64,000 bases of DNA from contig NC_080421.1 in assembly GCF_029873635.1 (NCBI RefSeq), positions 3,596,001 through 3,660,000 of the forward strand, given 5' to 3'. The notes beneath the pieces were generated by a model. It saw nothing but the letters and a program-made list of their open reading frames with translations, did no database searches and was not told the origin of the DNA. This document shows, piece by piece, positions 27,371-51,586 of this stretch. This DNA comes from Malania oleifera. Lineage: Eukaryota; Streptophyta; Magnoliopsida; Santalales; Ximeniaceae. Both the position numbers and the translations under genes were made by a program. Each line of letters begins with the position of its first letter. Within the stretch, counting starts at the first letter, position 1.

Positions 27371-28281
27371 TAGGGGGTGGCAAAATAGGTTGAAAGAGGG
27401 GTGAGCACAATTCAGGGATACCCAAATTAATTGAATTAACCAACCGAAATTGGTTAGTTCGGTTGGGTTAAGAACACGGGATTGGTCAGCTCGGTTATGG
27501 TTTTACAAAGTTTGATTAATCAGTTCAGTTAAGAGGAATGTTAATTCTGTTAACCAAAATAATCGATTTAATAATTAATTAAAATTTAAATATAAATTAG
27601 AATATGTTAATTTGTTAATATGTTAATTAGTATATATTAATTTGTTAATGTGTTAATTAGTATTTGGTAAAAAAATCTACAATTATACACATAATGTTTT
27701 TATTAATTAATTTCAAATTAATTTGATTAAATTCGATTAACCGAATTACCCGAAAAGGTAATTCGGTCGAGTTTGATTCGGTTTAGCCCCTCTATTCGGT
27801 CGATTCGATTAACAATTCTCATTAATCGAAAATTTTGGTTAATTCAGTTAATTGACCGAATTCGGCCAAACCGACCGTTTGTTCACCCCTATGTTGAAAC
27901 CCGAAGGGTGACCCGTGACCGGCCCGTTTAAATCGGGTTTGGGTTTAATACAAGCTGACTCATTTATAAATGGGTCAACCCGGACCCAACTCATTTATTA
28001 AGCGGGTTAGGCGGGTTTGGGTCGGATCACTTGCCAGTTTAAAAATAAAATGATGAGTATTTTTTTGTTTTTTAAATATCATTTTATATGAAATGTTTAA
28101 AATTTTTAGAATAAATAAATTATATTTTTAAATGCGTGATCTGTTTATTTAATGGGCAAGTTTGGGGTTTACATAGTAGTCACCAGTTAATAAACGAATC
28201 AACTTGAACCCGAATCCATTTAATCCCGACCCGTTTATGACCCGCCTAAACCTGCTCTGTTAACCCGTTTTGCCACCCCTA
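27371..28281. mobile_element. hAT-type MITE (outer), interrupted
   Basis: Terminal inverted repeats TAGGGGGTGGCAAAA (left) and TTTTGCCACCCCTA (right, 28268-28281). An 8-bp target duplication with 7 of 8 matching bases flanks it: CCCTTAAT at 27363-27370 and CCCTTATT at 28282-28289. Inside, the sequence is rich in GGGTT/AACCC words. A second MITE (27396-27891) is inserted near its left end, so its own length is about 410 bp. No transposase. Confidence 0.8.
27396..27891. mobile_element. hAT-type MITE (inner)
   Basis: A 496-bp element with ends GAGGGGTGAGCAC and TGTTCACCCCTA. Flanking 8-bp duplication matches at 7 of 8 bases (GGTTGAAA at 27388-27395, TGTTGAAA at 27892-27899). The interior is full of TTAACCGAATTAACCGA-like words, as in the larger element at 28644-29787. 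It sits inside the outer MITE, so it arrived later. Confidence 0.8.
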
Positions 28282-28452: not shown

Positions 28453-28643
28453 TTGTTACTGCCAAAAATCAAATGACCTTTGTAAAGCGTTCCTTCATCG
28501 TGACCACCTAAAAAGAATCAAGTAATAATGACTTGGAGAATTCAAAGTATACTCTGGGGATCATTCCGATGCTTAAGTAAGAGACTAATGGAAGGTTATG
28601 AATTGCAACAGTAGAAAGAAGTAGAAATGAGTATGATGCTTAC

Positions 28644-29787
28644 TAGGGGTGAGCAAATGGTCAGTTCAGCCAATTTTTGTTAATTAACCGAATTAATCGA
28701 AATTTTCGGTTAAAGAACACTATTAACCAAACCGACTGAACTGTTGGGCCTCACCGAACCGATACCAGACCGAATTTTTTTTTCGGGTAATTCGGTTAAC
28801 TGAATTTAACCGAAATTAACGATGCAGACCAAGAGGAGGCAGGTGCAGTATTAGAATAGCAGACATTGACAGAATTATTTTCTTCCAAGCTAGTGGGTTC
28901 TTTCATTTGGGACCCAAAATTTGAATTGAGCTCGTTGAGTTGCATGCACAACTAGAGTGAAGAAGGTTTCAGGACCCCGCCGATGGACGACGATCTCATG
29001 TCTAGGAATTGTTTGGGCTTGGCGGCAGAGGAACCATTGTTGGGCACTCTGTTTTTATTTAAATTTTTTTATTTTGTCTAAAAAAAATTGGCACTCGGTA
29101 GGTGAAGGGAGATGATTGTGTGCACACATTGTTTATAAGAACAGGGGACATCATGGGGGCTAGCACGAGCGCCAAAATTAGTTGGCGCTCTTCGACGACA
29201 ACAGCACGGCGGTGGAGATGTCGGATTTGGAGGCGTGGGGCGGGCTGATGGGCCTAAACCACGACTACTTCGAGCGCGGCAACCTCAACATCTTCAGCAG
29301 GAGAGGGGATTGCCTCACCGAACTGGCTTGCAAGATGCGCCTGACGTTGGACGGCTCTGGCCTGCTTCCAGGTTGGTATTGCAGTCACTTAGAGGTAACT
29401 ACCACAGGAAGCAACATCATGTCATCAATGTCGCTCTGTCTCATCATGGGGATGAAATTCTGCTTGTTGTTGGAGGCGGTGATGGCGTTCTAGCGCAGAA
29501 GAATGCCCAGAGGTAGAGCGACGTGGTCCACTAGCTCTGCCTTTTTTCCCTATCCCACCTACGCCTTTAACGAATTAACATATACTAATTTATATTTAAA
29601 ATTTAATTAGTTATTAAATCAGTTAATCGGTTAACCGAATTAATATTTTCTATTAACCGAACTGAAACCCGATTCACCGAAATGTTGGAAGACATAACCG
29701 AACCGACCGAATTAACCGAATCGAACCGACAAATTTCAGTCGGTTAATTTAGTTAATTCGGTTTTACCCAAATTATGCTCACCCCTA
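28644..29787. mobile_element. Non-autonomous hAT element carrying host gene sequence
   Basis: Perfect 12-bp terminal inverted repeats TAGGGGTGAGCA and an exact 8-bp target duplication ATGCTTAC (28636-28643 and 29788-29795) identify a hAT superfamily element of 1144 bp. Both ends carry TTAACCGAATTAACCGA-like words shared with the 496-bp MITE at 27396. The middle (about 28826-29560) is different: GC-rich, codon-like DNA that includes part of a PLAT/LH2-domain gene (29111-29420). No transposase is encoded, so it would depend on a partner. This is the hAT counterpart of a gene-capturing Pack-type transposon. Termini and target duplication still match perfectly, so it is likely young. Confidence 0.88.
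29111..29420 (+). pseudogene. Captured PLAT/LH2-domain protein fragment
   Basis: The plus strand reads DDCVHTLFIRTGDIMGASTS, then after one frameshift near 29180 ALFDDNSTAVEMSDLEAWGG, LMGLNHDYFERGNLNIFSRR, GDCLTELACKMRLTLDGSG and LPGWYCSHLEVTTTGS. This is the core of the plant PLAT-plant-stress domain family, ER-associated proteins involved in abiotic stress responses (WGGLMGPxYDYFERGNLDIF and GWYxxYVEVTTTG are family hallmarks). The signal peptide and start are absent and the C-terminal end diverges after the TTTGS motif. It lies inside the hAT element at 28644-29787. I judge it a non-functional captured piece, although transcription cannot be excluded. Confidence 0.85.
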
Positions 29788-30052
29788 ATGCTTACCTCCT
29801 CTCCAAGTTTCTTTTTATAATGATGGAGGTTGACACTCCATCAATTCGGCATTGATGGACATTATTGTGCTTGTGGGGGGGTTATAGAGGTTTTATAGAC
29901 ATTTATTTTGAGGTTTCAAGTATAATTTTGTAATCATTTCCTTTCATAAATGTGTGTACATTAAAATTTGTACACCGGTTATGTAAAGAAGTTTAATGAT
30001 GATTTCGTAACCATTTTTTATTTTGAGTAAGGATATTTTGGATATATCATGA

Positions 30053-49800: not shown

Positions 49801-51586
49801 TAAAAGTCTCAAATACTTCTTCACACAAAAAGAATTAAACATGAGACAAAGAAGATGGTTAGAATTAATCAAAGATTATGATTGCGCCATCAACTATCAC
49901 CCGGGAAAAGCTAACGTGGTAGCAGATGCATTAAGTTGAAAGTCAATGAATGCGTCAGTCTTGGCAATGGTGACCCAACATCAAATTATGATGGACCTAG
50001 AAAGATTTGGTGTGGAAATAGTGGAAGGAAATCATCAAGCTCTCATTGCTAATCTGGTAATCCAACAGACCTTATTGGAAAAGATTAAGGTTGCGTAGAT
50101 GGAAGATGCAGAGCTAGTGAAGATTATAGGTAAGGTATAGAGTGGATTGAAGGGAGACTTTAACATCTCTGACGATGGAGTTTTGAGATTCCAAACTAGA
50201 TTGTGTGTGCCCAATGACAAAGATATCAAAAGAACAATCTTGGAAAAAGCTCATCAATCTATTTATACAGTGCATCCGGGAAGCACGAAGATGTATAGGG
50301 ACTTGAGAGAGTCTTTTTGGTGGAATAACATGATCAGGGAGATTGCACAATTTGTGGAACAGTGTCTTACCTATCAGCAAGTAAAGGCTGAGCACCAGAG
50401 ACCAGTAAGACCACTACAACCATTCCACATTCCTGAATGGAAATGGGAGCACATCTCCATGGATTGTGTAATTGGGCTACCTCCAGCACTCCATGGACAA
50501 AACACCATCTGGGAGGTTGTTGATCATCTAACGAAGACCGCTCACTTTATTCCAATCAAAGTTAACTACTCTATGACCAAACTTGCAGAGTTATATGTTC
50601 AAGAGATAGTTAGACTACATGGCGTGCTCGTGTCTATCGTATCAGATCGAGATCCACGATTCACATCATAATTCTGGAAGAGTTTGCAAAGAGCCTTGGG
50701 ATCACAACTTACTTTTAGCACAACATTTCATCCTCAAACTGATGGACAGTCGGAGAGAACCATTCAAATATTGGAGAATATGCTGAGAGCTTGTGTACTG
50801 GATTTCAAAGGAAGTTGGATTCAGTATTTATCGTTAGTTGAGTTCGCCTATAACAACAGTTATCAGTCCAGCATAAAGATGGCACCGTATGAAGCGTTAT
50901 ATGGTCGAAAATGTCGATCCCCATTATATTAGGATGAGGTTGGTGAACGATGAATTTTAGGTCCCAAGATTATACAACAGACCTCTAAGAAGATTAAGCA
51001 CATTCGGGAAAAAATAAAAATCGCTCAAAGTCGGCAAAGGAGCTATGCGAATACCTGACGGCGTGAGTTGGAGTTTGAAGTGGGGGATAATATATTTTTA
51101 AAAGTCACTCCAATGAAAAGAATCATGAGGTTTGGGAAGAAGGGCAAACTAAGCCCTAGGTATAGCCATTCGAGGTATTGGAGAAGATTGGTCCAGTCGC
51201 TTACAGAATTGCCTTACCGCCTGCACTATCGAGAATTCATGATGTATTCCACGTCTCAATGTTAAAGAAGTATGTTCCAGACCCTTCTCATGTGATAAGT
51301 TACGAGTTGTTAGAAGTTAGTGACACTCTATCATATGAAGAAGTACTAATCCAGATTTTAAATAAGAAGGATCAAGAGTTGCGCACAAAGAAGATTTCAC
51401 TGGTAAAAGTGCTCTGGCACAACCATGATATTGAGGAAGCATCATGGGAACTAGAAGCAGAAATACGCCAGAAATACCCACATCTTTTCGACGATAGCAG
51501 GATCGGATAAAAGCACAACATTATACAAGGTACTCATTTAAATCTTTGTAAATTTTGAGGATGAAATTTTTATAAGGAGGGGAGGA

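Follow-up and report, generated by a model that had tools for sequence, protein, structure and literature searches.

A hAT element of Malania oleifera with a captured piece of a PLAT gene, and pieces of other host genes in its relatives

The stretch of the Malania oleifera genome analysed here (C5:3596001-3660000, 64,000 bp; hereafter, the window) contains at positions 28644-29787 a 1,144-bp hAT-type transposable element, in which part of a host PLAT gene lies between the two halves of an older insert. The genome in which its relatives were searched comprises 1.49 Gb in 510 contigs. Positions within this focal element are preceded by "el", and L numbers designate the family copies found in the genome. 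Among the relatives, at least three further host genes are represented by pieces, namely RPL27, nucleoside diphosphate kinase (NDPK) and ferroportin genes, and the intron is missing from all copies of two of these pieces.

The focal element, its family and the PLAT piece

The element and its immediate surroundings consist of the following features (window coordinates, strand, description; TSD, target-site duplication; TIR, terminal inverted repeat; MITE, miniature inverted-repeat transposable element):

28636..28643, no strand: left TSD, ATGCTTAC
28644..28655, plus: 5' TIR, TAGGGGTGAGCA
28644..28813, plus: 5' family end, el 1-170, also present on elements with quite different interiors
28814..29060, minus: older insert ("ORF-X"), left half
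29061..29067, no strand: filler AAATTTT at the left capture junction
29068..29101, plus: 3' end of the PLAT parent intron, 34 nt, including the former splice acceptor
29102..29419, plus: captured portion of PLAT gene exon 2 (PLAT/LH2, ATS3-like), frameshifted in the focal copy
29421..29429, no strand: filler at the right capture junction (GTCATCAAT in the focal copy)
29430..29579, minus: older insert (ORF-X), right half
29580..29787, plus: 3' family end, el 937-1144, closing with the 3' TIR at 29776-29787
29788..29795, no strand: right TSD, ATGCTTAC
27396..27891, no strand: MITE with related ends and the TSD GGTTGAAA/TGTTGAAA

The two TIRs (TAGGGGTGAGCA, 28644-28655 and 29776-29787) are identical over 12/12 positions and the 8-bp TSD (ATGCTTAC, 28636-28643 and 29788-29795) is exact, as an earlier, sequence-only reading of this DNA had reported. 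Short TIRs of this kind and a TSD of 8 bp both agree with a hAT element, and TAGGGGTG ends are typical of hAT. At the genome scale, the whole element gave at least 67 matches, with the best 40 of 2,460 candidates scored, and the family end TAGGGGTGAGCAAACGGTCGGTTCGG occurs exactly 538 times, vs. none in the reversed control. The family falls into classes having common ends (about el 1-170 and el 937-1144) and differing interiors, so that the elements with the same TIRs and other interiors that the earlier reading had proposed to look for do exist in this genome.

Concerning the PLAT piece, all 22 candidates were scored and gave 22 matches, 20 of which are borne by elements: 13 full or nearly full copies (including the focal one), five short and two partial ones. 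The remaining two are a parent gene and its paralog (69%), both on C7. Since 12 such full or nearly full copies exist besides the focal one, the focal element is not a chance arrangement. TSDs were scored at both ends for 19 of the 20 element copies, L034 being excluded for a missing end: they are exact in 12/19, have at most one mismatch in 17/19, and differ among all 19, which agrees with the claim that the unit moved as one piece. The exceptions are L008, whose 5' end is broken, and L036, with two mismatches. For all classes together, at most one mismatch was found in 44/50 copies (17/19, 2/3, 12/13, 8/10 and 5/5), not counting L034, L043, L044, L046 and L085, which have an unreadable end. 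The five short PLAT copies (L036-L040) share an internal deletion running from el 200 to el 509 (el 201-508 gone), although at different TSDs.

A search for the hAT dimerisation domain (PF05699; best 150 of 1,711 candidates scored) showed, within the region spanned by 100 listed ends, a perfect 26-bp family end less than 3 kb from 3/30 domains, vs. a random mean of 0.07 and with 0/20,000 random runs reaching 3. These three loci, two on C1 (from 107506249 onward and up to 33091631) and one on C2 (up to 7799820), carry open frames of 732, 736 and 557 aa at about 2.1 kb from the family ends, in the same geometry and with near-equal spacing, and thereby add support to the hAT identity.

The PLAT/LH2 domain recognised earlier in the middle of the element corresponds to 29068-29419 (el 425-776), which is 90% identical (318/354) to an intact PLAT gene at C7:10117198-10117551, on the minus strand. 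This parental locus, outside any element, matches the consensus of the 13 copies at 332/356 positions. The gene is ATS3-like: its exon 1, which resembles a signal peptide, is separated by a 205-bp GT..AG intron from exon 2, which is open (exons joined by eye), and its open frame scores 45.6 bits against a Pfam PLAT cut-off of 23. Within the element, el 425-458 derives from the parent intron and el 459-776 from exon 2. As the captured piece begins with the 34 nt (35 in the parent) leading up to the splice acceptor (TAG in the focal copy, CAG in the parent), intron sequence was copied, which answers the earlier question of whether introns are retained: part of one is. With TIRs, a TSD, no transposase and a host-gene parent outside transposable elements, the PLAT-bearing unit has the features of a Pack-TYPE element.

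The interior is common to many copies, as it would be if it were long-standing in the transposon family and the C7 gene had been derived from it. Such a derivation is nevertheless scarcely credible: the C7 gene possesses exon 1, more of the intron and the C-terminal part of exon 2, all lacking in the elements, its 69% paralog lies on the same chromosome, and many family members have no PLAT piece. The earlier reading had named two things that would refute gene capture, a whole interior long-standing in the family in many species and the lack of a parental PLAT locus outside such elements; the C7 gene is such a locus, and the PLAT-free sister elements show that PLAT is no standing part of the family.

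Concerning the fate of the captured frame, the 13 PLAT copies have a mean pairwise Kimura two-parameter (K2P) distance of 0.099, and of 0.036-0.080 to their consensus. Distinct changes amount to 40 synonymous, 76 nonsynonymous and no stops, whereas a codon simulation gave 41.0, 71.9 +/- 3.9 and 3.1, respectively, and does not support purifying selection. Indels affect the frame in 9/13 copies, and 6 synonymous and 17 nonsynonymous changes separate the C7 parent from the copy consensus. One copy, L031, retains a 215-aa open frame passing the Pfam PLAT cut-off (31.5 bits). The PLAT piece thus appears to drift neutrally, and since its frame shows no sign of selection, the focal element is most likely of no use to the plant. 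Two values run counter to neutrality and give weak hints of constraint: the absence of premature stops from the 13 copies where the simulated mean is 3.1 (P 0.03), and a pooled raw ratio of nonsynonymous to synonymous rates (dN/dS) of 0.54.

The older insert and the order of events

PLAT is absent from six sister copies (L041-L046), in which the older insert is uninterrupted. Five of them (L041, L042, L044, L045 and L046) read TTTTCTTT directly followed by (G/A)TCG straight through the PLAT site, and L043 aligns there like the other PLAT-free sisters. Compared with the nearest sister, L046, no more than one element base is gone from the PLAT copies. A tree of the backbone separated 13 PLAT from 9 non-PLAT copies with a support of 100 (IQ-TREE) and 0.98 (FastTree). 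Because the six PLAT-free sisters show the older insert uninterrupted, PLAT arrived after it, and once. That the PLAT-free copies are deletion derivatives is disfavoured by the tree, by the nearly intact flanks and by a 147-aa minus-strand frame in L042, open through the later PLAT insertion site. In L042, where the older insert spans el 170-610, this frame has a DKEN motif, while the plus strand is open over 113 aa. The focal copy and L003 both miss 11 bp near the start of the right half.

The sister copies and the tree therefore identify 28826-29110 and 29420-29560 as halves of one older insert. The earlier reading had taken these flanks for coding-derived DNA, possibly from more than one source. 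They are indeed real non-MITE sequence, but form a single insert split by PLAT, and their coding origin is unproven, given the failed searches for a source. No Pfam match was found at E values up to 0.1, no locus outside the family by DNA search (38/38 and 24/24 candidates scored, 18 matches of the former belonging to other family classes), and none that was convincing by protein search (52/52 candidates scored). One match, C6:7327732, has an E value of 0.37. The locus C12:5221486, considered as the ORF-X parent, proved to be the other half of the family copy L044. An identification of the older insert as a known gene was rejected on account of these results.

The position of PLAT also bears on the model that Gisby and Catoni put forward for maize and rice Pack-TYPE elements, hAT among them (PMC8903248), in which two elements insert in tandem and the intervening DNA is re-mobilised. 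For this element it is very improbable: PLAT interrupts an older insert, the halves of which meet with almost nothing missing in the PLAT-free sisters, internal TIRs flanking PLAT are absent, and no family end lies within about 4.7 kb of the C7 parent. Indeed, a BLAST of the element against the 9.9 kb surrounding the C7 gene returned a single match, hence no family end near the parent.

Other captured genes, their templates and their junctions

The RPL27 piece was found in L045, where it extends from the 5' to the 3' untranslated region (UTR; Pfam L27e, E 1.9e-27) and is 91% identical to the gene at C5:107821160-107821615 and its 3' UTR. It is accompanied by part of the older insert in L074-L077 and L079. 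The ferroportin piece is carried by L041, L043 and L044, with its 3' half in L090; in L041, it is 95% identical to C11:3320004-3320494, and Pfam FPN1 gave E values of 6.9e-8 in L041 and 2.9e-12 in L090. The NDPK piece is present in 10 copies (L078, L080-L084 and L086-L089), L085 being left out for its unreadable 5' end, and is 86-89% identical in L080 to two exons on C9. In these copies, NDPK lies next to the older insert and RPL27, forming a three-source chimera. The NDPK frame of the elements is below the Pfam cut-off (21.7 vs. 27 bits), whereas the two parent exons are above it (56.5 bits), with NDP kinases as PDB matches. The parent stretches read cover 1.8 kb for NDPK, 1.1 kb for RPL27 and 0.7 kb for ferroportin, so family ends may lie farther out.

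Three further observations concern these copies. In L080, a 218-aa frame (el 464-1117) fuses antisense NDPK, the older insert and the RPL27 N-terminus, with no Pfam match at E values up to 0.05. L044 (C12:5227939) and L090 (C12:5220664-5221565) are one family copy, split by an insertion of roughly 6 kb that contains a copia-like RNase H frame (by eye). Finally, the ferroportin donor exon occurs twice, at C11:3316138 and C11:3319221, about 3 kb apart, perhaps through tandem duplication.

As for the templates, the NDPK parent reads CACTGTCAG^GTGAGC ... AAATAG^ATCTTC, with an intron of 797 bp, while in L080 the join reads CACTGTCAGATCTTC. No intron base remains at this join (..CAG directly followed by ATCTTC..) in 10/10 copies, single-base changes being found near it in L078, L083, L087 and L088. 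The piece stops 4 nt short of the end of exon 2. In ferroportin, the parent reads AATCTTAAG^GTTTGAC ... ACTGCAG^GTTCTCC, and the 733-bp intron is missing in 3/3 copies: the join of AATCTTAAG to GTTC is exact in L043 (AATCTTAAGGTTCCCC), L090 differs there by base changes without a change in length, and L041 has lost 6 nt at this place. L041 also keeps 294 bp downstream in which the frame is not continued (stop after EREW); with this intronic-looking tail, the template looks partly spliced. By contrast, PLAT keeps its intron sequence and was thus copied from DNA or unspliced RNA, and RPL27 is uninformative because the coding part of its parent has no intron. NDPK and ferroportin pieces most likely come from a spliced or partly spliced template, in which mRNA, pre-mRNA or complementary DNA (cDNA) would have served as a break patch.

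Two other origins were weighed against this one. All captures might stem from genomic DNA by ordinary gap repair, with NDPK and ferroportin taken from intronless paralogs or retrocopies since lost or unassembled. The intron kept in PLAT, the intronless coding part of RPL27 and the introns retained in maize Ds captures with known donors (PMC3260210) are in line with it; it is rather unlikely, as it requires two separate donor losses and no intronless donor was found in the assembly. For NDPK, all 14 candidates scored are family pieces (12) or the two parent exons; for ferroportin, all 14 are family elements, parents or short matches. Alternatively, retroposed copies made by long interspersed nuclear elements (LINEs) through target-primed reverse transcription may have landed in the element and been carried along, an improbable origin in spite of the spliced exons and of the 9-bp duplication flanking the RPL27 insert in L045. 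No LINE-type poly(A) tail was found at the PLAT, NDPK, ferroportin or RPL27 (L045) pieces, and the flanking duplication is restricted to RPL27, whose own 3' UTR contains an 8-bp match at that very place, as would be expected from microhomology. Moreover, NDPK ends inside exon 2, and ferroportin keeps its downstream sequence of intronic appearance.

The junctions are consistent with repair. At PLAT, the left filler AAATTTT faces on the right, in most copies shown, the filler GTCATCAAC, resembling a slipped repeat of the adjacent CATCAA (L005 on the left and L037 on the right did not match these motifs). At ferroportin, AGGCG comes after the element end ..CGCCTTTAACGAATTAA and is the copy expected from a 3' end whose TTAA folded back on CGCCTTTAA (snap-back filler). 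RPL27 in L045 shows the microhomologies TGC on the left and TTGAGTTG on the right, and it is here that 9 bp of the element are duplicated. Read together, these footprints point to microhomology-guided end joining with template switching, for which DNA polymerase theta (Pol theta) would be the candidate enzyme.

The following course of events is proposed. The ancestral element already carried the older insert. A break within it would have been mended by microhomology-guided, template-switching synthesis of a Pol theta-like kind, copying about 352 bp of the PLAT gene (the intron end and part of exon 2), adding a few filler bases and losing at most one base of the element. PLAT-bearing copies, which form one group beside their PLAT-free sisters, moved as a unit, with a transposase presumably supplied by full-length relatives, and the same lineage took up the RPL27, NDPK and ferroportin pieces. 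With a probability of about 0.8, we regard this family as a non-autonomous hAT Pack-TYPE lineage whose internal breaks were mended time and again, on two occasions or more with a template that had been spliced fully or in part.

Several points weigh against this reading. The RNA step is based on two events only, and the 34 nt of intron kept in PLAT make it a counter-case. A lost or unassembled intronless donor would look identical, and the donor gene structures were read from DNA by eye. The footprints ascribed to Pol theta measure 3-9 bp and some could be due to chance, while the ends and the candidate transposases are linked by position only, with one end per candidate locus. For the wider proposition that capture in this hAT lineage is break repair often patched by RNA (pre-mRNA, partly spliced or spliced) or cDNA, the odds are about even.

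L049-L061 and further loci make up a larger class, in which the family's ends surround a GC-rich interior. The members scored (best 40 of 319 candidates) match the query at 87-100% identity and are thus more alike than the PLAT copies are among themselves; the class might represent another gene capture, or else be the youngest one. No donor of this interior was found in the same best 40 of 319 candidates, and two of its frames have no Pfam match. Within the window, the ends of the focal element are related to those of the MITE at 27396-27891, as previously claimed, the MITE having a TSD (GGTTGAAA/TGTTGAAA) matching at 7/8 positions. This MITE is nested within a second hAT-like element (27371-28281), with the ends TAGGGGGTGGCAAAA and TAGGGGTGGCAAAACG and the TSD CCCTTAAT/CCCTTATT. 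At 50141-50671, a 176-aa frame resembles a Ty3/gypsy integrase (by eye).

Known systems and significance

The sequence-only reading had held gene capture to be much less described for hAT elements than for MULEs, Helitrons and CACTA elements. It is less described, but already published: Pack-hATs of maize and rice, together with the tandem-insertion model, were reported by Gisby and Catoni in 2022 (PMC8903248), and gene-bearing Ds elements of maize (Ds2, Ds-l4) by Du et al. in 2011 (PMC3260210). In the portions of these and the following papers compared here, the likenesses and differences are as follows. Like the Pack-hATs, the Malania elements are non-autonomous hATs with TIRs, an 8-bp TSD and captured coding DNA; unlike them, they include two captures from spliced templates and show no trace of tandem insertion for PLAT, and the words "intron", "cDNA" and "mRNA" have 0 occurrences in the main text of PMC8903248. 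A further difference is that the parent, the pre-capture sister and the post-capture copies are all found within the Malania genome, which makes the junctions readable. With Ds2 and Ds-l4 they share the hAT type, short TIRs, a size of about 1 kb, gene fragments and filler DNA, whereas the Malania captures are spliced in 2/3 informative cases.

An exon-joined, intron-free host gene is also known from a hAT of the fungus Pseudocercospora fijiensis, which carries a histone H3 gene for which the authors infer a captured transcript or a retrocopy (Mob DNA 2019, PMC6710886); spliced capture by a hAT is therefore not new in itself. That case concerns one gene, with the pre-capture form and junction not in the text compared, while the Malania lineage has taken up several genes in spliced, partly spliced and intron-bearing form. 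Mechanistically, a parallel is found in human class 2 templated sequence insertions, break patches of which some are spliced cDNA (PMC5110952): they likewise show microhomology and added nucleotides, with no poly(A) and no TSD, but are documented by cell and polymorphism data and lie outside any transposon that multiplies the patches. Gap-filling with template switching and microhomology is shared with animal Pack-TIRs (Tan et al. 2021, PMC8277862), the pipeline for which discarded intronless captures of multi-exon parents, i.e. the very class found in Malania. No report of spliced capture by a plant DNA transposon was found in titles and abstract starts of open-licence papers, which is weak evidence of absence. 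What is new here is the series of captures, spliced as well as intron-bearing, in one plant hAT lineage.

How cut-and-paste transposons gain host genes is an unsettled question. In Malania, the donors, the pre-capture element and many post-capture copies are available for several independent events in one lineage and one genome, whereby both the repair footprint and the nature of the template, DNA or RNA, can be read and need not be assumed. The findings also point to a class of captures deliberately excluded by at least one published pipeline. If RNA or cDNA does often patch such breaks, members of a single family may have their introns whole, in part or not at all. Captures of this kind would then perhaps be frequent among DNA transposons and yet be missed by surveys in which intronless pieces are set aside as retrocopies.
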